A stretch of DNA of 44,063 bases from positions 1-44,063 of IMG/VR virus record IMGVR_UViG_3300036781_000212, one strand, 5' to 3'. This DNA comes from a virus. Under the pieces are notes generated by a model. That model ran no database searches, was not told where the DNA came from, and saw nothing but the letters and a program-made list of their open reading frames with translations. Position numbers and translations under genes: made by a program. This document shows positions 61 to 43,935 of the stretch, one piece after another (position 1 is the stretch's first letter; each line of letters opens with the position of its first letter).

Positions 61-315
61 CTAAGCAGCTTGTGGTCTGACTGCTTTCCTGTACATCCCA
101 TTAATGTTAAGTCTTACAATTTCATCTATTGCTTGTTCGATCGTGTCGTCTACCTCAGTATCTGATAGATCGAAAGTAACAATAGCTATACGAGCGAGAT
201 AACCTGGTGTATCGTATCCCTTATCATGATCGAATTGATACCACTCTTCGTAATCAGTGAAGGGATTCCATGGATTATCAACAGTAGTCAGCATGTGTTC
301 GTCACTGTTTGCCAT
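61..315 (-). CDS. Conserved small phage protein of unknown function
   Basis: The product is 84 residues, acidic and probably cytoplasmic. The ATG at 313-315 is preferred to an upstream GTG because AGGAGG lies a few bases before it. The stretch with DNPWNPFTDYEEWYQFD, followed by GYLARI and an acidic helix, resembles a small protein I remember from many Gram-positive phages, always without a known function. It is the last gene of the leftward transcript, right after the RNA polymerase-like gene. Function is not assigned. Confidence 0.75.
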   Translation of the reverse strand: MANSDEHMLTTVDNPWNPFTDYEEWYQFDHDKGYDTPGYLARIAIVTFDLSDTEVDDTIEQAIDEIVRLNINGMYRKAVRPQAA

Positions 316-324
316 GGTCACCTC

Positions 325-2976
325 CTAACGATGAAGTGCAGCATTGAGTGTGCTGACAGGAATGCCAAGTGAATCGGCTATCTCTGCTTGAGTGTAACCC
401 GAAGCAAGTCTAGCTTTAGCTATAGCAAGCTTTGAAGGAGTCATAACTGTTGCTGCTCTTGGCGTTGCAAGTTTACGAACTCGATCAACGTCTGAGTTTT
501 CAAGAATCTGACGCAACCTACTACTGCTAATAGATCCTGCTTGTATTGCCTTCCATTCCTCGTCTGTGATTTCTATCTGTTGCTTCTTTGCACCTGCTCT
601 GGTTCGAGCAGCGTCAAGTGCTTGACCCTTAACCTTTTTAATATCGGAGGTATCTAGATGGGGGTTTGCCTCCAACTTTGCTGCTACAATCGCATTAGCT
701 ATAAGTTGTGCTTGTCTTTCTAGAGGACGGTTCTTAAGCGCGATGTTTAGCTTTGAATTAAGAGTGGACACTTGTGCTTGATAAGTCTTGTTCGCAGTAG
801 GTGAATACTTCATTCTTCCAGTAGTTAGTGAAGCCTTACGTGCAACGTTGGCTAGAGACTTAAGACTGTTTGAATGATCAGCGTATATGTTCTCGATAGG
901 CATACCGCTTGATAGCTTGTGTGCGTCTGAAGTTTCAGCAAGCTTTGTAGATGAGATAGTTCGAACTATAGTTCTACCTTTTATATCAGTGAATCTTTGT
1001 CCTGTTTCTACAAAGACACGTCTACCTGTAACAGGATCAATAGGTCCACCCAACGATGCGGGTCTAGGCTTACGTTCTGGTACACGAACTTCAGAACTAG
1101 CTCTTGAAACTATTGTCGAAGCACCAGCAAGACGGCCTGTTGGTCCGCGTCCTTGATACTTCTCTTTCAAAGACGCTATTCCATTATCTATATAAGACTG
1201 ACGATAATTAAGATTATGTTTTTCAGCATCAATAACCACCATCGAATGACGAACGGCCCGTGCAATCTCTTCAGGCTTAGCACCTTTAATCGTCATATCT
1301 GTGATAAGATTTGATACATCACCCATCTGTTGCTGCTTTGATCTAGCTGACATCGGCTTCATTCCCTCGTAAGCTGGATATGCTGTACGAGGATCGAAGT
1401 TCTTAAGTCCTGATAGTGGTGCAGACGTTTTAAGTTCTCGTCTATTATTAGGAATTACCAGAACCGTATCACCATCAAAGTCTGCTCCAGACAGTCTTTC
1501 TGCAACGCTAGGATGAATTCCAATTGCGTCAATAGCGTTTCCTAGTGTATGCCTGGCATCAGCATGTCTGTTATTGACAGTAACTTCTGGTATCTCGAAT
1601 GTTCCACCATGAGGAAATCTAACAAGTCCTACTTTTTCTCCATTCCTGTAATTAGGAGCATAGATTTCATGTTCCTTAAGAGATGGAATAGGAAGAATGA
1701 CGTGCGTTCCCTGGCGCGGTAGAGCCGCTGCTTTCAAATGTACTGAAGCAAAATCGGCACTATCTGCATAAGCTTGAAGAAGCTTTTGTTTAACAACAGG
1801 ATTTGTCAAACGCATAATCTCGTTTAGATCATCTCTTCTAGTTGCAAGAGCCAGATCTAGTTGCCTCTTTGCAAGCACTGTACTTTGTTTTGACAAAACT
1901 TGACTTGAAAGAGTTCGAGACCAGTCTTTCCAGTCTCCTTCTTCATTTACTATGTTCATAGGTGAAAGTCTACGATTACCGTTTTCATCTATGAAATGCT
2001 GTTGCCGAACAGTAGAACCAAAAGGATTATCTTCGTCTTTTTGCGCCTTCATGGCGTCAAGTTTATTTCCCGTATTGCTCTTATTCGTATTGAATTGCAA
2101 ATCAACGCCTTTAGGCAAGTCTTCTTTATACATAGCCATGCCTTTAAGATAATGCGTTCCATCTACAGCTATTCGAACTTGAGCATAATGAGAAGATCCA
2201 AGCGCTATATCTGACACTCCAGGACGTACATAAATTACACCGTCCGCAGAAGTTCCACCGTCTTCCGCATATCGAATTCCGATTCTTTTAGAGCTAACGT
2301 TTATCGGAGGTTGAATTCCTAGATAAGTGCGACCGCCATCTTCCGAATATGCAGCAATGGATTTAATAGCGCTAGGATTTTTAACGATATCAACATACTT
2401 AGTTCCTGGAGGAGCAAGAACTTTGATTGTTGTTTTTTGTCCTGTTCCTAGCTGAGTAACCTGAACATTATGAACTTCGTAACCTTTTTCACGAAGCATT
2501 GCTACAGCAGTAGTCAGCTTAGTCGAACTGATTCCAAGATGATTCTCAGTTCCACTTCCTATATCTAGATAACCGCCCTTATCTACTTTTTCTTTAAGAA
2601 GATTAGATGTAGAAGTGAGAACGTCTTGTTTTTCTCTTTGAGATTGATTAACGAGCGATCTTACAGTCGACTCGTTTACGCCCATTCGTTGACCTATAGC
2701 AACGTTAGACAAACCTCTATCTTTTAGCCTAACTGCTTCTGCAACGTTGGCTGCCTGAACTTCATTTTTTGCAATTGCGCGAGCAGCTCTAAGCTGAGTT
2801 GTTGTAGTTCCCATATCTCTGGCTATATCAACTTCAGATAGACCCTTGGATCTGAGATCGTCAACGTAGCCTATAAAACTTCGGCTTCTCGAAATTGAAG
2901 TTCCGCCAGATCCCCAGGGATAGCGACCTGAACGTCGAAGAATGCCGTAATGATATAGAGCGTTACCGTTGGCCAC
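325..2976 (-). CDS. YonO-like single-subunit DNA-directed RNA polymerase with HTH motifs
   Basis: The product is 883 residues. Near residues 498-503 it reads ADFDGD, the Mg-binding DxDGD loop of the double-psi beta-barrel in the RNA polymerase beta-prime subunit and in YonO/QDE-1-type polymerases. Upstream, YRNGEKVGLVRFPHGGTFE and DLPKGVDLQFNTNK look like the rest of the two-barrel core. Helix-turn-helix-like segments lie near residues 40-70 (GLSEVDIARDMG) and 85-112 (GLSNVAIGQRMG), and at the C-terminus (YTQAEIADSLG). The N-terminus carries HYGILRRSGRYPWGSG, reminiscent of a motif in phage virion proteins. The GTG at 2974-2976 is chosen because a run of six G precedes it; a TTG at 2988 would add four residues. 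The start follows the stop of the Cas4-like gene by one base, so coupled translation is likely. Catalysis is inferred from the motif; a transcription factor or structural role is the alternative. Confidence 0.75.
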   Translation of the reverse strand: MANGNALYHYGILRRSGRYPWGSGGTSISRSRSFIGYVDDLRSKGLSEVDIARDMGTTTTQLRAARAIAKNEVQAANVAEAVRLKDRGLSNVAIGQRMGVNESTVRSLVNQSQREKQDVLTSTSNLLKEKVDKGGYLDIGSGTENHLGISSTKLTTAVAMLREKGYEVHNVQVTQLGTGQKTTIKVLAPPGTKYVDIVKNPSAIKSIAAYSEDGGRTYLGIQPPINVSSKRIGIRYAEDGGTSADGVIYVRPGVSDIALGSSHYAQVRIAVDGTHYLKGMAMYKEDLPKGVDLQFNTNKSNTGNKLDAMKAQKDEDNPFGSTVRQQHFIDENGNRRLSPMNIVNEEGDWKDWSRTLSSQVLSKQSTVLAKRQLDLALATRRDDLNEIMRLTNPVVKQKLLQAYADSADFASVHLKAAALPRQGTHVILPIPSLKEHEIYAPNYRNGEKVGLVRFPHGGTFEIPEVTVNNRHADARHTLGNAIDAIGIHPSVAERLSGADFDGDTVLVIPNNRRELKTSAPLSGLKNFDPRTAYPAYEGMKPMSARSKQQQMGDVSNLITDMTIKGAKPEEIARAVRHSMVVIDAEKHNLNYRQSYIDNGIASLKEKYQGRGPTGRLAGASTIVSRASSEVRVPERKPRPASLGGPIDPVTGRRVFVETGQRFTDIKGRTIVRTISSTKLAETSDAHKLSSGMPIENIYADHSNSLKSLANVARKASLTTGRMKYSPTANKTYQAQVSTLNSKLNIALKNRPLERQAQLIANAIVAAKLEANPHLDTSDIKKVKGQALDAARTRAGAKKQQIEITDEEWKAIQAGSISSSRLRQILENSDVDRVRKLATPRAATVMTPSKLAIAKARLASGYTQAEIADSLGIPVSTLNAALHR

Positions 2977-2977
2977 G

Positions 2978-3532
2978 CTACCCCCCAATCTTTAGGCGTT
3001 CCAGATATTGATCGAAAACTACAATCTTACTCATGAGATGGGCTATGACATCAGTAGTTGGATTATCAATTATAACTTCGTCATTTTGATAAATCCGGGT
3101 TTCGATGATCATTTCTCCTGGTTTAAACCCATACTCAAGACAAAACAAAGCTACATAAACCTCGAGTTGATGCATGGAACCTTGAATGATTCCTGTTTTT
3201 AGATCATGAACTCGAAGTATGTTTTTTCTAAACGCTATCGCATCGGCAGTTCCGTAACAATTCTCTGAATAAAAAAGAATTTGTTCGGTTTCCATACGAA
3301 AGCCTATTGCGTCGTTTACATACATATTAAGCGTTTTACTAGTTTTGGGCAGCTTAACGCCTAGACGTATTGCTTGATGTGCTAGAGCGTGAAGTTCCGT
3401 TCCTCGTTTGGCGGCTTGAGCGTTGGTCCAAACTTCTGTTAGTTTTTCTTCGTCGTAGTTGATCCAATGATACTTGCTGGCGCTCAGAAATGCGTGCTGT
3501 CCTGCGAGCCTGAAATGCGAGTTGAACTTCAT
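2978..3532 (-). CDS. Cas4/RecB-like PD-(D/E)XK nuclease
   Basis: The product is 184 residues from the ATG at 3530-3532; a TTG at 3565 is possible but lacks a ribosome site. The order of motifs fits a RecB/Cas4-type exonuclease: RGTELH (His about 48), GTADAI (Asp about 97), HDLKTG (Asp 110, Lys 112) and QLEVY (motif IV, about 122-126). I see no cysteine set that would hold the Cas4 iron-sulphur cluster. The likely role is DNA end processing in replication or recombination. Its first 179 bases overlap the 3' end of the upstream nuclease gene in another frame. Confidence 0.75.
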   Translation of the reverse strand: MKFNSHFRLAGQHAFLSASKYHWINYDEEKLTEVWTNAQAAKRGTELHALAHQAIRLGVKLPKTSKTLNMYVNDAIGFRMETEQILFYSENCYGTADAIAFRKNILRVHDLKTGIIQGSMHQLEVYVALFCLEYGFKPGEMIIETRIYQNDEVIIDNPTTDVIAHLMSKIVVFDQYLERLKIGG

Positions 3533-3800
3533 GGAGGACCTTATCGACGTTCTTTGGAAAAACAAATGACGAGAAAGACATCGCGTCCATCAGCAGCACA
3601 TATTCTCGCTGATTTGGACGAGTAGAAGCGTTTTCCGAAGACTTGCATTCAAAAGCAGCCCAATGTTCTCGCCATAGAAGAAGAACGTCAGGAACTCCCT
3701 GAAGATAATTTGGATCGTTTTTCAGGATAATGCTGCCAGGAAACTGTCTACGCAAAAGTTTTATGAAGTGTGCTTGAAATCTCGATTCTGCTCTGTTCAT
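3354..3800 (-). CDS. VRR-NUC-type PD-(D/E)XK nuclease
   Basis: The product is 148 residues with an AGGAGAGG site upstream of the ATG at 3798-3800. The core has GVPDVLLL (Asp 38), AFECKSS (Glu 51, Lys 53) and a following RPNQ, the arrangement of VRR-NUC/Holliday-junction-resolvase-like nucleases common in phages. The domain ends near residue 95. The last fifty or so residues are Arg/Ser/Thr-rich, look unstructured, and are read from DNA that also codes the start of the next nuclease. The functional protein may be only the first two thirds, with the tail a by-product of the overlap. Confidence 0.7.
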   Translation of the reverse strand: MNRAESRFQAHFIKLLRRQFPGSIILKNDPNYLQGVPDVLLLWREHWAAFECKSSENASTRPNQREYVLLMDAMSFSSFVFPKNVDKVLHEVQLAFQARRTARISERQQVSLDQLRRRKTNRSLDQRSSRQTRNGTSRSSTSSNTSRR

Positions 3801-4989: not shown

Positions 4990-5015
4990 CTATTATAGGG
5001 CATGTTTTTACGCCG
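4990..5015 (-). promoter_or_regulatory. Conserved promoter box P1
   Basis: On the minus strand the sequence has CGGCGTAAA, then AACATGCCC, then TATAAT (4992-4997). The TATAAT lies exactly 18 bases after the CGG start, the same spacing as in three other boxes in this window (at 19055, 20256 and 20845). It lies about 80 bases upstream of the start at 4908, with no gene between. There is no canonical TTGACA, so the CG-starting element may replace the -35. Confidence 0.65.
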
Positions 5016-5024
5016 AGAAGATCT

Positions 5025-8169: not shown

Positions 8170-8675
8170 TATTCCTCCGGTTCGTTATGACTCATGATGG
8201 CAGCGGAAGCACTGTCTGGAACATCCAGATACTTAAGCTCGAGTTCGTCCTCTCTGATAGTCACGTAGATCGACTTGAGATAAGCCTTGACTCCTGTGCG
8301 CCCACTGACTTCCCATTCATAGGGCCGCACGATCATATCGACATTTTCGATGTCAGCCCAGTCAAGAAGACTAACCATACTTTCATCTAGTGGAGTCTTT
8401 CCACGGCTTGTGATGAGGATAATACGAGGAGGATTCTTTCCGAACTTGACAGATACTTCAAGTCTAGGCTGAGGCTCGTCTCCTTCTTCCCGCGGCTGAA
8501 GATATTTGACATTCCAGCCGTCTTTAAGCATCAGCTCAGCTTCTTCATGCTCGAGAAGAACGTTGAAGTTCCGAGCTCCTTTTGCATTGAACCTGCCTTC
8601 TTCTCCAGAGAAGTTACGAAAAAGAATCCGTCTTCCCTCAAGTACTACTGGCCCCAGACTCCTCTCCTTCGCCAT
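8169..8675 (-). CDS. Single-stranded DNA-binding protein-like
   Basis: The product is 168 residues with GGAGGG upstream of its ATG. The sequence GRRILFRNFSGEEGRFN followed by GARNFNVLLEHEEAELM and GWNVKYL is the hallmark of a phage family I know as SSB-like OB-fold proteins. The later TGVKAYLKSIYV and the acidic C-terminus (ELKYLDVPDS, then NEPEE) also fit, an acidic tail being typical of partner binding in SSBs. It lies in the replication module. Its first 13 residues resemble those of the neighbouring DUF6275-like protein. Confidence 0.7.
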   Translation of the reverse strand: MAKERSLGPVVLEGRRILFRNFSGEEGRFNAKGARNFNVLLEHEEAELMLKDGWNVKYLQPREEGDEPQPRLEVSVKFGKNPPRIILITSRGKTPLDESMVSLLDWADIENVDMIVRPYEWEVSGRTGVKAYLKSIYVTIREDELELKYLDVPDSASAAIMSHNEPEE

Positions 8676-8997
8676 TTGTGCCCTCCGTTCTGTTTTTTGT
8701 ATTCAAGCTAGAAGGAACAGGAACATATTCAGGATTTTCGCTTTGCCGCTGCAAAATTTTGTGTATGGCTTTCTCAATCCGTTCCATCTTGAACGGACTG
8801 GAACTCTTTTTATCCTTAATGCATACGTTGTAACACTTCTTGTAGACGTCGATGTAAGCTTTGTCGCCGTTATAAGTGACTTCGTAATACATCTTTTCTG
8901 GCGACGTGCTACTAAACAAAGCTTTCCAGCTTTTAAGAGTTTTACACCACCAGATCTTCTCGAGAACGGAAGGACCAAAACTTCTCTCTTTAGTCAT
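8638..8997 (-). CDS. DUF6275-like protein, copy 2, with altered N-terminus
   Basis: The product is 119 residues. From WWCKTLKSWKALF to MYYEVTYNGDKAYIDVYKK it matches the core of the neighbouring copy at 8997-9284, but the usual N-terminal helix is missing and is replaced by MTKERSFGPSVLE. That peptide mirrors the start of the SSB-like protein (MAKERSLGPVVLE). A charged C-terminal extension of about 50 residues is extra. The ATG overlaps the upstream stop (TAATG), and the 3' end overlaps the SSB-like gene by 38 bases. The role of the family is unknown. Confidence 0.65.
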   Translation of the reverse strand: MTKERSFGPSVLEKIWWCKTLKSWKALFSSTSPEKMYYEVTYNGDKAYIDVYKKCYNVCIKDKKSSSPFKMERIEKAIHKILQRQSENPEYVPVPSSLNTKNRTEGTNGEGEESGASST

Positions 8998-9284
8998 TAG
9001 ATTGTATCGTTAATTACGATGTTATCGAACTTCTTATAGGCATCGAAATAAGTTTCGCCTTTGTCACCGTTATAAGTGACTTCGTAATACATGCCATCTG
9101 GAAGTGTAGTACTCAGCAAGGCTTTCCAGTTCTTCAGTGTCTTGCACCACCAGACGACATACACGTCGTCATTCAGGAACGAGGTAAGATTGTCTGTCTT
9201 GTCAAGCCTGGCTTTGATATACATGAAGACATGAAACTTGGCTTGCTCTAGCATCGGCAGATCAAGATGACTTTGATTAGTCAT
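8997..9284 (-). CDS. DUF6275-like protein, copy 1
   Basis: The product is 95 residues from the ATG at 9282-9284, which overlaps the upstream stop. It has an N-terminal helix (LPMLEQAKFHVFMYIKARL) then VYVVWWCKTLKNWKALL and YYEVTYNGDKGETYFDAYKK. This fits DUF6275, a family seen in actinophages and other phages and without known function. The beta-rich core suggests a small nucleic acid- or protein-binding fold. Two more copies lie at 8638-8997 and 18608-18970. Confidence 0.7.
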   Translation of the reverse strand: MTNQSHLDLPMLEQAKFHVFMYIKARLDKTDNLTSFLNDDVYVVWWCKTLKNWKALLSTTLPDGMYYEVTYNGDKGETYFDAYKKFDNIVINDTI

Positions 9285-9613
9285 TAGATTTTCCCGTGTT
9301 CTCTGATTGCGCTGAGCAGACAATTGATGGCAAGCTCGTTGGCCTCAGCCACATAGCCCAGTTCGATCTCAGCAACGAATAGTGAGAGCTCGTGCAAGAA
9401 AGCCTTCTGAGCCTGAATCATCGGCCCGACTTCCTTGGTGTGCACATAATCATGCTGTGCGAGAACATAGTCAGTCATCGCGCTGATCAGAGCAGGACGT
9501 GCTTCCGGATGCATTTGAATCTTTTGAGTAACTGATCCCTGATTGATACTCATTTGAGAATCCTTCTCGATTAGCGATTGGGCTTCATCGAGATTAGGAA
9601 CGGCGTTAGTCAT
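9284..9613 (-). CDS. Helical hypothetical protein
   Basis: The product is 109 residues and mostly alpha-helical (PALISAMTDYVLAQHDYVH, then a second long helix with KAFLHELSLFVAEIELG). No membrane span and no recognised family. The ATG overlaps the TGA of the small membrane protein upstream (ATGA at 9610-9613), and the stop overlaps the next start, so it sits in a translationally coupled string with the DUF6275 copies. Confidence 0.65.
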   Translation of the reverse strand: MTNAVPNLDEAQSLIEKDSQMSINQGSVTQKIQMHPEARPALISAMTDYVLAQHDYVHTKEVGPMIQAQKAFLHELSLFVAEIELGYVAEANELAINCLLSAIREHGKI

Positions 9614-15687: not shown

Positions 15688-16554
15688 TCAAATCCTTATA
15701 GGACCATCGACATTGAAGTCGAGGATCGTCGAAGGCTCGATACCGTTTACGAAAGCTCTGCTGGATTCATCGAAAATGTCATAAAGACCGAAGTCAACAT
15801 GACCGTCTCCATTTCCATTGAGCTTCCATCCGACAACCTGGCCGGCCTGAGATCTTTCCATTCCCAAAGCTTCATACACCTCGTTCAGGAATATGAAACC
15901 ATAAGCATGAAGACGATCGTTGGCCCACTGCTGCTGAGAACGGAGAAACAGCATGTTGTACTCGGGAGTTTTGGACCAGTGTGGATTGTACTCATCGAAG
16001 AATCTTGCATATGGCGACGGAAGAACGTCAGTCCAGTCAATTTCACAAGGAAGTCCGTCTTCACCTGTGCCATTTTTGATTCTGATTCCGCGATAGAGAA
16101 CGAGCTCTTTCTCTTCACCGACAGCCTCTGCAACACGCCTCCTGTAGGCTCTGTAAGCCACATCAAGGGCAGAATATGCAGCCACAAGACTTGCGTTCCT
16201 TTTCACCATAATTCTGTGAGCGGAGAAGACAAAGCCTGTTGAGACCGATCCTAGCATAATCGAAGGCCAGTAGATCTTGATGAGATCAGCGGTATTATCC
16301 GCATAAACCTTCATAAGACGACGGGCAGTTTCTTTTTCGCTTTCGTCCAAATCTTGTGATTTCGATTTCGCATCCTGAATACGTGCTTTAAGTTCAGGAA
16401 ACTTCTTCTCAGCTTTGAGAGTCGCATGAACAGTTAGAATGTTGGTTGCGATTAGTCCGCTGACGCCGGCCACAGTCATAATGCTTGGACCCTTGTTACC
16501 AAGAAACAGTTTTGTCTTTCCACTGAGTCTGGTTGCTATCTGCGAGATGTTCAC
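15688..16554 (-). CDS. DUF6353-like membrane protein, copy A
   Basis: The product is 288 residues from the GTG at 16552-16554, chosen because AAGGAGAGG stands just upstream; a TTG far upstream adds 35 unlikely residues. The N-terminus GPSIMTVAGVSGLIATNIL is a membrane helix. A second hydrophobic segment (YWPSIMLGSVSTGFVFSAH) precedes a helical stretch (SLVAAYSALDVAYRAY) and a beta-rich C-terminal part ending VNGIEPSTILDFNVDG. The same plan is seen in the gene at 19230-19988. DUF6353 has no known function; its membrane location suggests host envelope interaction. Confidence 0.7.
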   Translation of the reverse strand: MNISQIATRLSGKTKLFLGNKGPSIMTVAGVSGLIATNILTVHATLKAEKKFPELKARIQDAKSKSQDLDESEKETARRLMKVYADNTADLIKIYWPSIMLGSVSTGFVFSAHRIMVKRNASLVAAYSALDVAYRAYRRRVAEAVGEEKELVLYRGIRIKNGTGEDGLPCEIDWTDVLPSPYARFFDEYNPHWSKTPEYNMLFLRSQQQWANDRLHAYGFIFLNEVYEALGMERSQAGQVVGWKLNGNGDGHVDFGLYDIFDESSRAFVNGIEPSTILDFNVDGPIRI

Positions 16555-16660
16555 AGATCCTCTCCTTAGAGATAAGAATATGAGTCTTGTTTGGTATAGC
16601 CTCACGTGGAGGGATCGAGGCCTTACGGATACGAAACAAGCAAACCTACCGAAATTCAAT

Positions 16661-18478: not shown

Positions 18479-18624
18479 CGCTTTCCTCGAGCTATTGTGA
18501 GACGCAGCTCTTCGATCAGGCCTTTACGCAAATTAGATTCACGTTTAGTCTTAGCAGCTGCTTGTTTGCGAACCGGTCCGTTTTTCTTTGTTTTTCTGTA
18601 CTTTCCGTCAGGCTTGCCGCTCAT
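18475..18624 (-). CDS. Small basic protein
   Basis: The product is 49 residues, starting at the second of two adjacent ATGs (18622-18624) with GGAG six bases upstream. It is very rich in Lys and Arg (GKYRKTKKNGPVRKQAAAK, then RGKR at the end), suggesting RNA or DNA binding. It overlaps the 3' end of the DUF6275-like gene by 17 bases and the start of the following gene by 4, so it is embedded in a coupled string. No family is recognised. Confidence 0.55.
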   Translation of the reverse strand: MSGKPDGKYRKTKKNGPVRKQAAAKTKRESNLRKGLIEELRLTIARGKR

Positions 18625-18970
18625 CATTATCTCCAAGAAGGACTTTGACGTTGTTGATCTTCTTGTAAATATCGATGTAAATTTCTCCCCTATGGCCATT
18701 GCAGGTTACTTCCCACAGAAGACCTCGAATGATAGGAGAAGCAACGATCGCCTTCCAATTGCCCAGAGTTTTCGAAAACCAGACGATGTAAACTCCATTG
18801 TCAGGAAGTTCAGGAGACTTGGCTGTATCGCGATATTTATTGTAATTTGCTACAACGACTTGCTTTGCTGTTCTCAGAAACCTGTCCGGATCTTCTGATT
18901 CTGGCCGCCGCTTCCGAAAAGGTGGAGCAGGCTTTGGCGATGCAGTTTCGATATCAGTTACTTCAGTCAT
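18608..18970 (-). CDS. DUF6275-like protein, copy 3
   Basis: The product is 120 residues with AGGGAG before its ATG. After a Pro-rich N-terminus it has DRFLRTAKQVVVANYNKY, VYIVWFSKTLGNWKAIV and LLWEVTCNGHRGEIYIDIYKK, the same plan as the two copies near 9 kb. It lies downstream of a promoter-like box (19055-19081) and a hairpin (18996-19022). No function is known for the family; three diverged copies in one phage suggest separate partners. Confidence 0.7.
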   Translation of the reverse strand: MTEVTDIETASPKPAPPFRKRRPESEDPDRFLRTAKQVVVANYNKYRDTAKSPELPDNGVYIVWFSKTLGNWKAIVASPIIRGLLWEVTCNGHRGEIYIDIYKKINNVKVLLGDNDERQA

Positions 18971-19022: not shown

Positions 19023-19204
19023 TTGGATCTGCTAGAAGGATTCAGATCCGGGTTCGTTATAGGGCGTGTTATTCCTGCGAGTTCCCTTCGCAAACTTCTG
19101 ATTTTTGCCTTAGGCAAACTTTTTCCTGTTGCCTGAAAGTATGCCCTATTAGTTTGCCTAGCAACGATCCATGGCCACATAAGCCAGAAGAAGAACCTTC
19201 CCAA
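19010..19204 (-). CDS. Possible small membrane protein (doubtful)
   Basis: The frame ending at 19010 encodes RFFFWLMWPWIVARQTNRAY, a membrane helix followed by a basic stretch, which looks protein-like. The start is unclear: TTG at 19204 or ATG at 19180, neither with a good ribosome site. Its 3' part covers promoter box P3 and two hairpins, which argues against it. An overlapping frame ending at 19069 is less protein-like. Confidence 0.3.
   Translation of the reverse strand: MGRFFFWLMWPWIVARQTNRAYFQATGKSLPKAKIRSLRRELAGITRPITNPDLNPSSRSKTKS
19055..19081 (-). promoter_or_regulatory. Conserved promoter box P3
   Basis: On the minus strand the box reads CTCGCAGGA, ATAACACGCCC, then TATAACG. The TATAAC is at 19056-19061 and lies exactly 18 bases after the CGCA start, as in the three related boxes. 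It would drive the genes from 18970 leftward. It falls inside a doubtful small frame (19010-19204). Confidence 0.6.
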
Positions 19205-19229: not shown

Positions 19230-19988
19230 TCAAAACTTCCCGAAATCCGGTCTCGGAAGGTTTTCGAATCCGACTGCGAGACACGGCTGTCCGTCTTGTG
19301 CAAGATGTGAGGAGAATCTGAGTTTGATGAGGTTTTCGATATTGAATCCCAGCTCTTCGCCGATAGTTGTATGACCCAGTCCCAGAAGCTCGTAGAAATC
19401 GTTGAGAGGGGCATACATATCATTGACGATGTTAGCGTTGACGTCGTTACCTGCTTGACGAATCGATTCGATATCACTTTTGAAATACCGACCTGTCAAC
19501 TGGTCGTAGCAAAGTGAATCACCCCCTTGAGTGATGATGATCTGCTTGTCATCCACAGGATTGTTTTGAATTTGTTTTGCGGCAACTCCATCCTGAATCT
19601 TCGATTCTTTTCCTGCCCCGATTTGACTAAGAACCTCATCTTTGTACTCGCGGAAAGCAGCATCTGCAAGCGTATACGCTCCTAGATATGCGGCTTGACG
19701 GCGAAGTCCGATCTGATTGGCACCGATGATGCATGAGATTGTTGCAGCACCTGCAAGCGTAGGAGGGATATAAAACCGCCAGACAAGTTCCACTTTGTCA
19801 CGAGTAGTCAGATTGACTTCTGTTTCTGAATTCAGAAACGAATCGATTTTTTTATCTGATTTGACAGCAGCCTTCGCAGTCAAATATGCTGTTGCGATAA
19901 CACCACCGATTCCAATCGCTGACAGAATTGATGGTGAATTCTGATTGACTATTCTTCCTGTGGCATAAAGCCAAGCTGGAGTTTTCAT
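19230..19988 (-). CDS. DUF6353-like membrane protein, copy B
   Basis: The product is 252 residues with AGGAGAG before its ATG. Residues 18-42 (SPSILSAIGIGGVIATAYL) form a membrane helix, a second hydrophobic segment (YIPPTLAGAATISCIIGAN) follows, then AYLGAYTLADAAFREY and a C-terminal domain with YAPLNDFYELLGLGHT and GEELGF. The plan matches the gene at 15688-16554 (SALDVAYRAY, LNEVYEALGM), so the two are distant paralogs. The function is unknown. Confidence 0.7.
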   Translation of the reverse strand: MKTPAWLYATGRIVNQNSPSILSAIGIGGVIATAYLTAKAAVKSDKKIDSFLNSETEVNLTTRDKVELVWRFYIPPTLAGAATISCIIGANQIGLRRQAAYLGAYTLADAAFREYKDEVLSQIGAGKESKIQDGVAAKQIQNNPVDDKQIIITQGGDSLCYDQLTGRYFKSDIESIRQAGNDVNANIVNDMYAPLNDFYELLGLGHTTIGEELGFNIENLIKLRFSSHLAQDGQPCLAVGFENLPRPDFGKF

Positions 19989-20255: not shown

Positions 20256-20284
20256 TCATTATAGGGCTTGTAATTCTTGCGAGG
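20256..20284 (-). promoter_or_regulatory. Conserved promoter box P2
   Basis: On the minus strand the box reads CTCGCAAGA, ATTACAAGCCC, then TATAATGA. The TATAAT is at 20258-20263, 18 bases after the CGCA start. The box begins immediately after the stop of the 45-residue gene and lies about 30 bases upstream of the ATG at 20225. Confidence 0.7.
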
Positions 20285-20519: not shown

Positions 20520-20822
20520 TTATAGTTTGATCTTGGGAACGAATCCCAAACTTTTCGACGTGATTACATTGGCCTTTTCGAATCCCAGAATTATAATGAT
20601 TCCGGTGAGGTGCGCAACGGCAGTAATCAGCACTTCTGGATTCACAAACGGAGTTTTCGCAGCTACCTTATCGGCATTACGAATTTCCATGAGTGTCTTC
20701 AGTGCAGTGATTGCGTTTGTATGCGCTTCATCACCAGCATCCATTATCTGTATTTCGGAAATAAGCTTTTGAATTGTCTCGTCGAGTGGATGCGATTCGA
20801 TCTTTTTGATTCGGCTAAACAC
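20520..20822 (-). CDS. Conserved membrane-associated phage protein
   Basis: The product is 100 residues, starting at a GTG (20820-20822) with GAGAGG upstream. It begins MFSRIKKIESHPLDETIQK, followed by a helical region and a hydrophobic segment (VLITAVAHLTGIIIILGFE) and KANVITSKSLGFVPK. I recall this HPLD and SK(A/S)L pattern from small actinophage proteins of unknown function. It is alone on the unit between promoter box P4 and the terminator at 20450-20496. Confidence 0.7.
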   Translation of the reverse strand: MFSRIKKIESHPLDETIQKLISEIQIMDAGDEAHTNAITALKTLMEIRNADKVAAKTPFVNPEVLITAVAHLTGIIIILGFEKANVITSKSLGFVPKIKL

Positions 20823-20844: not shown

Positions 20845-20872
20845 CACTATAGTCCGTGTTTATTCTGCGATC
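20845..20872 (-). promoter_or_regulatory. Conserved promoter box P4
   Basis: On the minus strand the box reads ATCGCAGAA, TAAACACGGAC, then TATAGTGA. TATAGT is at 20846-20851, again 18 bases after CGCA. It starts at the stop codon of the holin gene and lies about 25 bases upstream of the GTG at 20822. Confidence 0.65.
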
Positions 20873-27652: not shown

Positions 27653-30600
27653 TATCCGCCAGAGCTCCCCTCGCTATTGATAGTTGATTCTTTGTTCTGC
27701 GATAAATATCAGACGCAGACAGTTCCTTGGGTGAGGTGTTGTTTTGAATAAAGTTCAAATTTGTTATTCCTGCAGAAAGTCCTGCTTCTTCGGCTGCTTG
27801 CTGATTTGCGGCAGATATCGATGCCGCAAACGAAGTTGAAGCATTTGCATTTATAAGCTGATTCTTAGACAATGCTGATAGCTGACTCAATCCTGCTTTG
27901 GCTTGAGTCAAGTCGATCACCGGAGTGATCCTTGGCTGAAGGTTTATCCCTTCGCTTACAATCGCTCCAACACTAGACATCGTCTTACTCAAAGTTTCTA
28001 GTGCGTCTTTTCCAGTCTTTTTCATTGAATTAATGACGTTATCGCCATTTTCTATTACTGCCAAAGTCCATCCGTCCATCAAAGCTTTGCCAATTACCTT
28101 AGCATCCTTGGATGGAGAATTCGCATGAATTGCGTGCATAGCTGCACCTATAGCGTTTTTCGCTATGTTAATAAGAGCTCCGAATAGACCTGCTGCGCCG
28201 CCAACAACAGCCGATATAATACCTTCAATGATTGCGCTTCCAAGATTTTCAGCCGCAGCATGAAGTTCTCCACTACTGCCTCTTATCTTATTGGCTATTC
28301 CATTCACAAGACGAATAACCATATCAACACCTGCTGCAACTATTCTTTGAGTACCGTTGCCTATAGCATTGATAAAGGTTATGATAACGTTCGTTCCTGC
28401 ACTAGCAATTCTGTTGATGTTTCTGCTAATTCCATTCAGAAACGCAATTATAATACTTGCACCCGAATCAACAAATCTGCCAATATGACTTTGAACAGCA
28501 TCTAGAAGTGATTGAAGAAGATTCAGGAAAGTACTAATAACATGATCTTTGTTTTTGTTTATAGCAGTAAGAATAGCATCAAGAACTGTTTGAAAAGCCT
28601 TCGCCATCTTCGGTGTTAGTTTTGTTATTCCATCAAGGACAGAACCAACAATTGAAATAAAGGCTTTTTCTATTGCTACTCCACCAGTTCCGATGGAATT
28701 AGCAAGAGCAACTATTCCTAGACCAAGTTCCTTTGCTGCCAAAGGAATAAGGTCCAATATACTCTTTACAAATGATAGTATTGCTGCACCTGAAGCTGTT
28801 AGAGCAACAGCCAATGCTGTAAGACCCGTAGCAAAGAGAAATACTCCTGCACCTGCTGCTAGAACTCCTATACCTAGAAGACCAATCGCAAGCCCTAGAC
28901 CTAGCAAGGTTGGAACAAGAGGCGTCAGTACAATTCCCGCCGCAGCCAAAATTACGAAAACGCCGACTAGAGCGACTAGACCCTTGGCAATTGCTTCCCA
29001 GGACAGCGCACCTAGAGCAATAAGCACTGGAGTTAGAATTGCCAATGATGCTGCAACTACAATAAGTGCTGCCGCACCTAGCAAAGCTTCAGTCATTAGA
29101 ATCATTGCTGCTGCAATAATACCAAGCGCACTAGCAAGTACTATAAGTGATTTGGCTATAGCTTCCCAGGACATGCCGCCCAACGAAGTAAGAACCTTAG
29201 CCAAGATAAGCAAAGATGCTGCAACTATAATAAGTGCGGATGCTCCCAACAAAGATTCAGTCATTAGAATCATTGCCGCTGCAATAATAACAAGAGCAAG
29301 AGTTATAGTTATAAGTCCCTTAGCAATTGTGCCAATTGACAAACTACCAAGTTCTTCAACCGCTTTTGCTAGAACAAGAAGAGCTGCTCCGATAATCACC
29401 ATTGCAGCAGCTGTACTAATAAGTTGTGCTCCGCTGATTAGATTAAAACCAGCAATAATCGCAAGAAGGATTGCTATTGAACCAATCCCTTTAGCAAGGG
29501 TTCCAAAGTCTAGCTTTCCAAGATTTCTTACAGCAACGGCCAAAAGATTCAGTGCAACGGCTATGAGATCCATTGCAAATGCTGAACCTATCAATCCCGC
29601 AGTGTTCTTTGACATTATGGCTGTCGAAATAACTAGTTCTGCAAGAAGAACCGCAATCGCCGCAAGTCCCTTAGTCAGTTCTTCCCAACTAAATCTTGAA
29701 AGAATTGCTACTGCTCCAGAAAGAATAACCAAAGCAATAGCAAGAAGATTAATAGCAACTCCGATGGCTGCCATTTTGACTATTCCAGCAGAAGCGCTAA
29801 CGGTCGTTATAACTTTCAACGCTGCGCCAAGTTGAATGAACATGACAGTCAAAGCCGTAAGCGATTTAGCCAAATCGCCTGGATCTATGAATGACAAAAC
29901 TAGCAAGGATGCCGCAAGAAGAGCTACAGCAATAGCGATCTTCTTAAGAATGTCAGACTTCAAACTAGCTTGCATTACAACAAGCGTTTTGGTGAGGCCT
30001 TCAAACGATTCCTTGATGGTAGCAAACAGTCCACCACCCTTACTAGTTGCACCCAAGTTCTTGATGAAGTTTCTAATAGCAAGAAGAATGCTCCCACCAA
30101 GAAGTGTATTAAGCAGAGTTCCAAGTTTCTGGAAATTTCCACTTTCAATACCTTGAGCTATTGCGTCTGTAATTCTTGACCAGATTTCACTGATCTTGCT
30201 CATCACAGGCTGCATAATGTCAGCTAGTTTGGAAATAGCGTCTGGAACTTTAGACAAAGCGGCGACGAGAAGATCTATAACTTTAATCGGGAAAGACAAG
30301 ACTTTTCCAAGTCCTTCAAAGAATCTGGTTAGAGAATCTCCAGCTTCAATACTATCTTTAATGTTTGTTACGAAATCGCCAATCTTTGCAGCAAGATCCA
30401 GAAAACTTCCTCCGCCGCTAGCTGCTGCCCCGAACATAATTCCGAGGCCTCTTGCTACAGCTTCAATAACATCAATTGCAATTTTGAAGACTGAGAAAAC
30501 ACCTTCAAAGATTGATTTAATGTCAGATGCCGTTTTAGAACTAACGCGAAGACCTTCTGTAAAGTTTTCAATAGCTTTCGCTATACCAACAACGGTTTCA

Positions 30601-41336: not shown

Positions 41337-41960
41337 TTATGCTGCTCGCTCAATCAACTTTTTTATACCTTTATCTGTGTATTTAGAAGCATACGAACTA
41401 GCTTGCTGCCTGGCAACATCACCGCCAATTTTGAGAACTTCGTGTGTAATTCTTCGACCAACAGATATTTCTGTTGGATTCAACTGTCCGTGCTGTCGTT
41501 CAAGATTCAAACGTGTAACCAAATGCTGAAGATCTTCATTCGACAAAGCAGAAGTACCGTGTTTTTTGACTGTCGATTTAAGAGTTGAAGCTCTGGCAGC
41601 ATCTGAGGAAACGGTATGACCAGAAGAACTACTACTTCTTCTTTGTCCCCATTTCATGCCTTTGATTCCAAAATGAATAAGAACATCTTCCAAAGAATCA
41701 AATTGTTTGAGTGAACCATCAGGATTCCAAGTTACAGGAATCATAGATTCAAGTTTAAGCGCTTTGGCTCGATTAATAACATGCCGACGAACAGCATTTC
41801 TTCTAGCAATATCTGATTCGCCAGCATTTGGAGTAGCCCGGCCGACAGCATTAATCGCGTCACTAAGTTCAGTTCGATTTCTAATATAAAACGAACCGTC
41901 AGGCATTGCTATATGCATCTTAGCAAGTTGTCGACGCTGTTCAGCCGTTGGTTGTGCCAT
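41337..41960 (-). CDS. Head-associated protein with GIKGMKWG motif
   Basis: The product is 207 residues from the ATG at 41958-41960, which has AAAGGAGG upstream; a longer frame adds 47 hydrophobic residues without support. ARRNAVRRHVINRAKALKLE, then MIPVTWNPDGSL and HFGIKGMKWGQRR are features of phage head-morphogenesis proteins, where the GxKGMKWG peptide recurs. The C-terminal half is helical (LSNEDLQHLVTRLNLERQHG). It is likely packaged with or bound to the head. Confidence 0.65.
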   Translation of the reverse strand: MAQPTAEQRRQLAKMHIAMPDGSFYIRNRTELSDAINAVGRATPNAGESDIARRNAVRRHVINRAKALKLESMIPVTWNPDGSLKQFDSLEDVLIHFGIKGMKWGQRRSSSSSGHTVSSDAARASTLKSTVKKHGTSALSNEDLQHLVTRLNLERQHGQLNPTEISVGRRITHEVLKIGGDVARQQASSYASKYTDKGIKKLIERAA

Positions 41961-41970
41961 GACACCTCCT

Positions 41971-43935
41971 TTATACATCCATGAAAACGAACAAACTAGA
42001 AGAAATAACTGTTGAATGAGCAGTTGATCCATGAATTCCCATCTTGTGCATACGAACAGAACCAGCACCGGGAACCTTAATATGAGAAGAAAGAGAAACA
42101 TGCATCTTCTTCATACGAACTGAACCAGAACCACTTATTTTGATTTTTCCTGCAACAGAAACACTCATCTTGTGCATTTGAACTATAATGGTTCCAACTA
42201 CACCTTGCTTAAGTGCTTCTGCCAGAGCTCCAGATACCCAACCGCTATCCCAAGCATGCGATCTATTAACTGTTCCTGTATATATATGCAAGATTCCAGC
42301 TGTTGTAAGCATACCATCATACGTTACAACGTCTGAATCGAACGCAGTTCCATCACCAATCCAAATACGTGGTTCTGATTGGAATGGAGTTGCATGTGCA
42401 TTTAGAAACGCTTGAGTCAAACGATAATTAGCCTGAAAATTAGCATCTGTTCCATAGTTTGCGGATGAACTTCCATCGAATGGAACGTCATAAGCAGTCA
42501 TCTGTACTGAAGGAAAATCCCAAGACATACATTTTGCAAACACTGTAGGATTCTTAAGAATAAGATCTTGACCACCTATACCAGATTTCGAAAATCCAAT
42601 AAGATGATGATCTTCTCCACCTGTTCCAAGATTTGACTCTACCCATCCTGCGAGTTCGACCATAAACGTTTCGTATTTCTTACCACTATCGGTCGAATTA
42701 TCCGCATACCAAGGTTCAATATCAAAAGTTGGTTCAATAACAGTAAGGTTGTATGTATTATGAGCTCCGAGAACTCGAATAACATCTAGACCATCACCAA
42801 ACGTTCCAGACAAACCTTCCAGAACAGGCAAAGCGTAGATGAAAGCAGGCTCATAACTTGTATCTGGAGCAGTTGGAATAAGTACTCTAAGAATTTGAGG
42901 AGAAGGAGCATTAAGTCCGCTATCCACATGATAAGTATCAACACCGTTAATGTCAGTACTGACAAAAACGATAGACAAGCCTTGATTTCCGGTTCCAGAA
43001 ATACCCATCTTGTGCATTCGAATGGATCCGGTACCAATCAAAGGCGCATGGCCTGAAGATGAGATGGCCATTTTGTGCATACGAACTGAACCAACACCAG
43101 GAAGTCTTGCCTGGATAGAAATACCCATCTTGTGCATTCGAATGGATCCGGTACCTACTACTGGAGCTTTTCCCGTAGCAGATATACCCATCTTGTGCAT
43201 TCGAATGGATCCGGTACCGCTTACAGGTCCAGACGGAGAGGTTGGAGACAAAGTAACTGTCCACATAGACCACCAGTTAGATGATCCACCATTTGAATCA
43301 GATACTGTAATACCGCCAACAGATGTTCCAGAACCGCCAACACTACCGTTCGAATCACTAATAATAGCGCAAACGCCTGAATTATTATGATTTTCTCTTG
43401 TTGTTACGCCTGACGGAGCTGTTATGGTTCCTCCGCCATTAATACTAATAGCTCCAAGATAAACTGCCCATTCTCCACTATCACCACTGCTTCCTGATGG
43501 AGCAGTAATTATAGAATCTGTATTCGTTGTGACTGTGTGAACATCTACTCCTCCTGGAAAACCAGTCCAAACACCTAGAGCGGCCATCCAGAAGAATTGA
43601 TCTGTGCCTGGAGCTGTTCCTGTATAAGCAATTGTAAAACTAGTATTTCCTTCACCAGATCCAACAAGGCGTTTAAACAATGCTGAATAAGTATGAAATC
43701 CTGAATCTCCAGCACCAGTATCTTGAGTTGTGCCTACTTGTGTCCAAGTACCGTGAGCGTCTGTTATATTAAAACCTGGCGAAGTCGAACCATCAAAGGT
43801 AAATGCGTTGACAACCAGCAGCATAATGTCATTTTGTACAACGCCAGTCGGAATGACCATGCTGATAGTCATATCATGTGGAGCAGCAAAACCTTGACCG
43901 TCCGCCATGACAGAACCAACATTAAAACTACTCAT
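41971..43935 (-). CDS. Modular tail protein with esterase-like domain and repeated linkers
   Basis: The product is 654 residues. Residues 1-235 form a beta-rich jelly-roll-like domain. Four GTGSIRMHKMGIS-type units lie at about 238-305. Residues 335-575 form an alpha/beta-hydrolase domain with LIGFSKSGIGG (nucleophile Ser 449), IWIGDGTAFDSD (candidate Asp) and SHAWDSGWV (candidate His), like esterases with the GFSKSGxG elbow. Three more linker units (QMHKMSVS, RMKKMHVS, RMHKMGIH) end the protein at about 585-645. It could deacetylate or hydrolyse host glycans during adsorption. Its ribosome site AGGAAGG sits in a small hairpin loop. Confidence 0.7.
   Translation of the reverse strand: MSSFNVGSVMADGQGFAAPHDMTISMVIPTGVVQNDIMLLVVNAFTFDGSTSPGFNITDAHGTWTQVGTTQDTGAGDSGFHTYSALFKRLVGSGEGNTSFTIAYTGTAPGTDQFFWMAALGVWTGFPGGVDVHTVTTNTDSIITAPSGSSGDSGEWAVYLGAISINGGGTITAPSGVTTRENHNNSGVCAIISDSNGSVGGSGTSVGGITVSDSNGGSSNWWSMWTVTLSPTSPSGPVSGTGSIRMHKMGISATGKAPVVGTGSIRMHKMGISIQARLPGVGSVRMHKMAISSSGHAPLIGTGSIRMHKMGISGTGNQGLSIVFVSTDINGVDTYHVDSGLNAPSPQILRVLIPTAPDTSYEPAFIYALPVLEGLSGTFGDGLDVIRVLGAHNTYNLTVIEPTFDIEPWYADNSTDSGKKYETFMVELAGWVESNLGTGGEDHHLIGFSKSGIGGQDLILKNPTVFAKCMSWDFPSVQMTAYDVPFDGSSSANYGTDANFQANYRLTQAFLNAHATPFQSEPRIWIGDGTAFDSDVVTYDGMLTTAGILHIYTGTVNRSHAWDSGWVSGALAEALKQGVVGTIIVQMHKMSVSVAGKIKISGSGSVRMKKMHVSLSSHIKVPGAGSVRMHKMGIHGSTAHSTVISSSLFVFMDV
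43002..43218 (-). repeat. Three identical 34 bp repeats coding the RMHKM linker
   Basis: An identical 34-base sequence, beginning TACCCATCTTGTGCATTCG on the plus strand and ending in GGATCCGGTACC, occurs at 43002-43035, 43122-43155 and 43185-43218, spaced 120 and 63 bases. It encodes the GTGSIRMHKMG linker on the minus strand. A more diverged copy lies at about 43062-43095. Identity at third codon positions suggests recent duplication or gene conversion. Confidence 0.85.

Follow-up and report, generated by a model that had tools for sequence, protein, structure and literature searches.

The question raised by this locus is whether a large protein coded near one end of a phage genome is an RNA polymerase and, if so, at which stage of infection and on which genes it acts. 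The gene lies where the first-pass annotation had it, at 325..2976, on the minus strand of the window, i.e., the whole stretch of DNA analyzed here, a linear IMG/VR virus record of 44,063 bases, and codes for 883 residues from a GTG start. The longest version of the reading frame starts with a TTG at 2988; the start was set at the GTG at 2976 because the relatives start there. Against the phrog_4291 profile, the protein scores 1316 bits (E=0; residues 7-886 against profile positions 8-906 of 909), a match that places it, at full length, in PHROG 4291. Relatives occur in 250 of 50,697 phage records, 249 of them covering at least 80% of the length; they share less than 60% identity, are nearly all full length, and come from phages of Arthrobacter, Gordonia, Streptomyces, Lactococcus, Curtobacterium, Rhodococcus, Microbacterium, Faecalibacterium, and others. 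Since the family already stands in the databases in these 250 records, the gene itself is not new, and its relatives are labeled there mostly as "RNA-dependent RNA polymerase" or "HTH protein", and also as structural or hypothetical proteins. The first of these labels was set aside: it probably stems from a likeness to QDE-1 and the RDR enzymes and, as a library label, is probably misleading. A DNA template would fit the protein better because this is a DNA phage with promoter-like elements of its own.

An AlphaFold model built from 39 relatives (mean pLDDT 80, pTM 0.63) recovered in Foldseek searches the silencing polymerase QDE-1 (E 2e-9), the P74 phage RNA polymerase gp62, and plant RDR2. 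VIA-align superposes the model on QDE-1 with a Z-score of 16.7 (4.5 A over 367 residues, within residues 225-717), on maize RDR2 with a Z-score of 16.6 over 351 residues, on P74 gp62 with 13.3, and on the large subunits of cellular RNA polymerases with 11-12 around the catalytic barrel. These alignments place a polymerase core with two double-psi barrels at residues 223-720 (817..2310, minus strand), which bears out the two barrels for which a comparison of predicted structures had been proposed. The whole-chain TM-scores are low (about 0.24-0.32), as is to be expected because only the core is held in common. Among sequence-based searches of the PDB, that with the single protein matched nothing, and that with a profile of the family matched no polymerase and gave mainly helix-turn-helix (HTH) and designed-repeat proteins. 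The catalytic ADFDGD motif by which the protein had originally been recognized (residues 498-503; 1468..1485, minus strand) is invariant in 39/39 aligned relatives, as is most of the QVR...KGMA block upstream of it. On the strength of the model, the two-barrel polymerase fold is close to certain, and from it we infer polymerase activity.

The two HTH segments before the core and one after it, likewise noticed at the outset, are all recovered by a combination of Pfam, PHROG 664, and the helices of the model. The first spans residues 34-66 (2779..2877, minus strand), with model helices and a PHROG 664 match at 44-114; the second, residues 79-110 (2647..2742, minus strand), with Pfam HTH_23 at E=2e-10; and the third, residues 847-882 (331..438, minus strand), with Sigma70_r4_2 at E=7e-9 and HTH_3 at E=5e-6. 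With residues numbered from the TTG, Pfam places HTH_23 at 82-120 (two stretches counted), Sigma70_r4_2 at 863-887, and HTH_3 at 856-882.

The assignment to a "YonO/QDE-1 type" can be retained in part. The two barrels and the fold match to QDE-1 stand; membership in the YonO family does not. YonO itself is assigned to phrog_8308, a profile that the present protein matches weakly (E=5.9e-4 over 83 residues) and not over its full length. In hhalign, an alignment of the family gave no barrel match to the lone YonO sequence or to lone sequences of phage phi14:2, including gp66; the latter is also absent among the fold matches listed, an absence that is no exclusion. Among solved structures, QDE-1, plant RDR2, and the RNA polymerases of phages P23-45 and P74 come nearest in fold. 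As the protein belongs to a family of its own, phrog_4291, and meets the family of YonO only weakly, it is, as judged by sequence, a two-barrel polymerase distinct from YonO though related to it, outside the YonO family proper.

Ahead of the first HTH lies an N-terminal tag, NALYHYGILRRSGRYPWGSG (residues 5-24; 2905..2964, minus strand), which is disordered or of low confidence in the model (pLDDT mostly <50). The relatives start with LxH[YF]G[IT][LP]R[RKH]SGRYPWGSG or a close variant, and residues 9-24 rank as the 11th most conserved of 867 segments of 16 residues, on par with the catalytic segments. The tag is a divergent, DUF7211-like peptide: Pfam PF23847 (DUF7211) is a 25-residue family of unknown function with the similar peptide LxHYGVKGMKWG, which each genome carries one to nine times, on proteins that otherwise differ and are mostly coded next to or between the terminase and portal genes. 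A profile made from DUF7211-type tags only ranked the polymerase N-termini (7/7) within the top 9 of 705 segments with H-x-G; against PF23847 itself, the best N-terminus tried scored 15.2 bits (E=0.014), below the curated cut-off of 27 bits. DUF7211 proteins are present in all 12 of the polymerase-bearing phages tested, and searches of SPbeta, phi14:2, four same-host controls, and 14 control genomes found none, a null that is not proof of absence. The window has its own DUF7211 protein, coded at 41337-42101 upstream of the terminase gene, with the tag VLIHFGIKGMKWGQRR at 41622..41699 (minus strand) matching PF23847 at E=8e-11, above the curated cut-off. A literature search with the letters of the tag gave nothing relevant among the papers listed, and the resemblance of the polymerase N-terminus to DUF7211 appears to be a previously unreported feature.

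An array of such proteins is seen in Arthrobacter phage Qui (9746-16162), where eight tagged proteins, several annotated as membrane proteins, are coded between terminase and portal and a ninth just before the terminase, a diverse set of putative cargoes. In the window, the region ahead of the terminase genes also holds a 654-residue reading frame (41971-43935) that matches an esterase weakly and contains a 50-96 nt repeat in several degenerate copies.

The gene neighborhood and the records of relatives bear on whether the polymerase is a virion protein. Directly upstream is a gene for a Cas4-like exonuclease (2978..3565, minus strand; phrog_3953, E=2e-77), with one for a VRR-Nuc-type endonuclease as a further conserved neighbor (3354..3800, minus strand; phrog_93), both placements being supported by synteny in relatives. 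Directly downstream is a small conserved gene, the last before the genome end (61..321, minus strand; phrog_4303, E=2e-30), which has the same place in R. equi phage ReqiPoco6, where the cos end follows. Location in a nuclease operon, not among the head genes, counts against packaging. On the other side, the record of Lactococcus phage 1706 lists both orf75, the polymerase homologue, and orf7, a protein with two DUF7211 tags, as "structural protein". These labels reportedly go back to mass spectrometry in a 2008 Virology paper on phage 1706; the label of the ReqiPoco6 copy was given by similarity to 1706 orf75. The tag and the homologue's label suggest that the enzyme travels in the virion instead of being made in the cell alone, and its packaging seems reasonably likely.

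A shared intergenic element, TCGCA-N4-TTACA-N5-TATAAT, was defined from five polymerase-carrying genomes. In the window taken alone, neither a repeat search nor the counting of k-mers was strong enough to show it; it became evident in the phage Circum before being confirmed across genomes. Sites were scored with a weight matrix trained on the other genomes, leaving one genome out at a time, against a threshold from 20 shuffles. The window holds four, all on the coding strand and ahead of early genes and the polymerase operon, which gives definite form to the earlier suggestion that conserved boxes elsewhere in it might be promoters. Element A, TCGCAGAATAAACACGGACTATAGT (20846..20870, minus strand), lies ahead of the reading frame at 20520-20822 and scores above the maximum of the 20 shuffles; element B, TCGCAAGAATTACAAGCCCTATAAT (20258..20282, minus strand), is the best site (score 36 versus a shuffle maximum of 13) and has an ATG with a AAGGAGAGG Shine-Dalgarno sequence about 30 nt downstream; and element C, TCGCAGGAATAACACGCCCTATAAC (19056..19080, minus strand), found with the profile trained on other genomes, precedes the reading frame at 18608-18970. 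Element D, TCGGCGTAAAAACATGCCCTATAAT (4992..5016, minus strand), stands ahead of the gene run that ends with the nuclease, the exonuclease, and the polymerase, and sites in a comparable position, ahead of the endonuclease-exonuclease-polymerase genes, occur in other phages (Circum 54430, Eevee 52512). A weak site at 43508 (score 12.1) was dropped, as it lies inside a reading frame and falls below a larger shuffle control. The early region further holds two paralogous genes of unknown function (15688-16659 and 19230-19988, both phrog_2152). Elsewhere in the window, two adjacent genes (8638-9323) each hold a copy of a 96-nt stretch; the copies are 79% identical and lie 200 nt apart, and the genes are likely a tandem duplication.

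Across eight polymerase-carrying phages, the sites number 57 on the coding strand versus none on the opposite strand: the window 4/0, Scap1 7/0, Chikenjars 8/0, Circum 9/0, and 1706 1/0, along with three genomes outside all training, P092 10/0, Camille 9/0, and Eevee 9/0. In phage 1706, only one site passes the strict shuffle threshold, owing to its AT-rich background, and seven appear in a looser scan; the Lactococcus phages have a weak upstream TCGCA box or none. All 57 lie outside the block from terminase to tape measure, in the part of the genome after the main tail genes, and none precedes a structural gene; many are followed closely by a start codon with its Shine-Dalgarno sequence. Phages that infect the same host genera but lack the polymerase (phiC31, GTE6, Laroye, and sk1) gave 0/0, as did 40 kb each of SPbeta and phi14:2. 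Within the element, TTACA begins ten bases before TATAAT, a nearly invariant C stands immediately 5' of TATAAT, and the conserved columns hold no -35 hexamer (TTGACA) at 17 nt from it. A literature search with the letters of the element gave nothing relevant among the papers listed, and the element too appears to be a previously unreported feature. The tape measure gene of the window contains, as a separate matter, a tandem 168-nt pair that is 73% identical (28984-29319).

The element and the polymerase occur together well beyond these genomes. A 46-nt copy searched against the 50,697 phage records (E up to 10) matched 187 records at 1033 places. For Gordonia (55), Streptomyces (54), and Rhodococcus (4), it gave as many records as the polymerase search did, genus totals being compared rather than individual records. 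In IMG/VR, the exact pattern is present in at least 120 stretches; among 36 records longer than 29 kb picked by the motif alone, 27 hold PHROG 4291 (one by a short weak match only), versus a background rate of about 0.5% of phage records. The remaining nine belong to this lineage as well, and all code for its capsid-protease and DNA polymerase. Most break off no more than a few kilobases from the DNA polymerase gene, before the point where the RNA polymerase would be expected; two extend 9 and 11 kb beyond the DNA polymerase gene. Shared descent alone could lie behind part of this association and could even be the source of the joint occurrence of polymerase, element, and tag. A functional element is nevertheless favored because of its conservation between phages of Lactococcus and Actinobacteria, its strict orientation, and its placement, and the polymerase quite probably recognizes it. 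Among 84,980 bacterial and archaeal genomes, the exact pattern occurs once, in Streptomyces sp. NRRL F-5122 (NZ_LMWH01000236.1, 3424-3451), with agreement extending beyond the pattern (CTCGCAAGAATTACACGGCCTATAATGAGAC). That genome is without a PHROG 4291 polymerase, and the site is possibly a phage remnant or part of a satellite that uses the polymerase of a helper phage.

Taken together, these observations point, with a probability that we put at roughly 0.6, to a DNA-dependent RNA polymerase that is packaged in the virion and transcribes the early genes from the element. Guided into the prohead by its DUF7211-variant tag, the polymerase would be packaged in the head and enter the cell together with the DNA; its tandem N-terminal HTHs and its C-terminal HTH would help it to recognize TCGCA-N4-TTACA-N5-TATAAT; and it would then transcribe the early genes and its own operon in the new cell. 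With promoters ahead of early genes, the polymerase would be needed from the outset, which carriage in the head would explain and for which the tag offers a route. What the data show directly is the gene with its predicted fold, invariant motif, HTHs, and conserved tag, and the element that occurs jointly with it; the enzymatic activity, the recognition of the promoter, the packaging, and the ejection into the cell are inferred.

The polymerase could instead be a non-virion enzyme, first made by the host RNA polymerase from an ordinary promoter and then transcribing early and middle genes from TTACA/TATAAT, with the tag doing something else, for instance attaching to a protein of the phage or the host. 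Its place in a nuclease operon with the element ahead would suit this, as would the presence among the closest folds of P23-45 gp64, a non-virion two-barrel polymerase whose targets are the early genes and part of the middle ones (PMC10770324). We nonetheless regard it as unlikely, given the structural-protein record of the 1706 homologue and a tag that, despite its disorder in the model, is as conserved as the catalytic segments and is similar to a peptide found on the products of genes that adjoin terminase and portal. Less likely still is a division of labor in which the host polymerase reads TTACA/TATAAT for the early genes and the phage enzyme transcribes the late structural genes, as YonO does in SPbeta (PMC5467207). 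TATAAT does resemble the host -10 box, which counts against a promoter specific to the phage polymerase, and the polymerase gene, the last in the early run, adjoins the late genes after circularization. The element, however, has no -35 box at 17 nt, is common to phages of two phyla while being nearly absent from bacterial genomes, and is missing from same-host phages lacking the polymerase, including sk1, whose annotated early promoters have -35 and -10 boxes at canonical spacing. To our knowledge, TTACA with a C before TATAAT also matches no standard sigma-70 rule, which counts against reading by the host enzyme. A late role is rather improbable, and the timing would differ from that of YonO, which serves late genes, whereas the promoter-like elements here stand ahead of early ones. 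Finally, repeated conserved elements in phages can serve as operators, and the element might be one for a lineage-specific repressor or activator, with the polymerase using other sites; the single orientation of all 57 sites, together with the Shine-Dalgarno sequence and start codon that follow many of them at a short distance, makes this highly improbable.

N4-like, jumbo, crAss-like, and Thermus phages are already known to carry RNA polymerases in their virions. If the reading as a packaged early polymerase is right, such an enzyme is also present in about 250 phage records with genomes of ordinary size, where it comes with a defined promoter and a peptide that is a candidate for its packaging. 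Many of these are actinobacteriophages on easily grown hosts and would be simple systems for testing promoter recognition by virion polymerases, ejection of proteins through a siphophage tail, and cargo loading; the reading would also suggest a possible function for DUF7211 and for hundreds of vaguely or wrongly labeled genes. More tentatively, DUF7211 may be a general head-cargo signal in a large siphophage lineage, by which the virion polymerase and a changing assortment of further proteins are packed for delivery, and the polymerase may fire, in bacteria of two phyla, a promoter of its own that does not depend on the host.

Among known systems, YonO of SPbeta is likewise a single-chain two-barrel polymerase of about 100 kDa, linked to the present one by the weak profile match (E=5.9e-4), but it differs in PHROG family and in its late-gene transcription, and its phage lacks both a DUF7211 tag and, in the 40 kb tested, the promoter-like element. 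QDE-1 and plant RDR2 superpose best among solved folds (Z 14.6-16.7, with about 345-450 residues aligned), yet they are eukaryotic RNA-silencing enzymes without the phage tag, at 11-14% identity. P23-45 gp64 and P74 gp62 are phage single-chain two-barrel polymerases (Z 12.6-13.3) but are shorter (about 590 residues) and share no established sequence family with the window polymerase; gp64 further differs from the proposed packaged enzyme in being non-virion. The two-barrel polymerase of phi14:2 (picked here by its length of 2180 residues) is given in its GenBank record as a virion protein by MS/MS; the window polymerase, at 883 residues, differs in length, neither an hhalign match nor a shared PHROG was found between the two, and the phi14:2 phage has no DUF7211 tags. 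A parallel in kind might be struck with the capsid targeting sequence of T4, a short N-terminal peptide that steers different proteins into the prohead; its sequence is unrelated, and packaging by DUF7211 is a hypothesis put forward here. The closest counterparts are the PHROG 4291 proteins of other phages (e.g., Streptomyces phage Scap1 gp55 and Lactococcus phage 1706 orf75), full-length homologues with the tag in common, similar gene neighbors, and the same position as the last large gene before the genome end, from which the window polymerase shows no essential difference.
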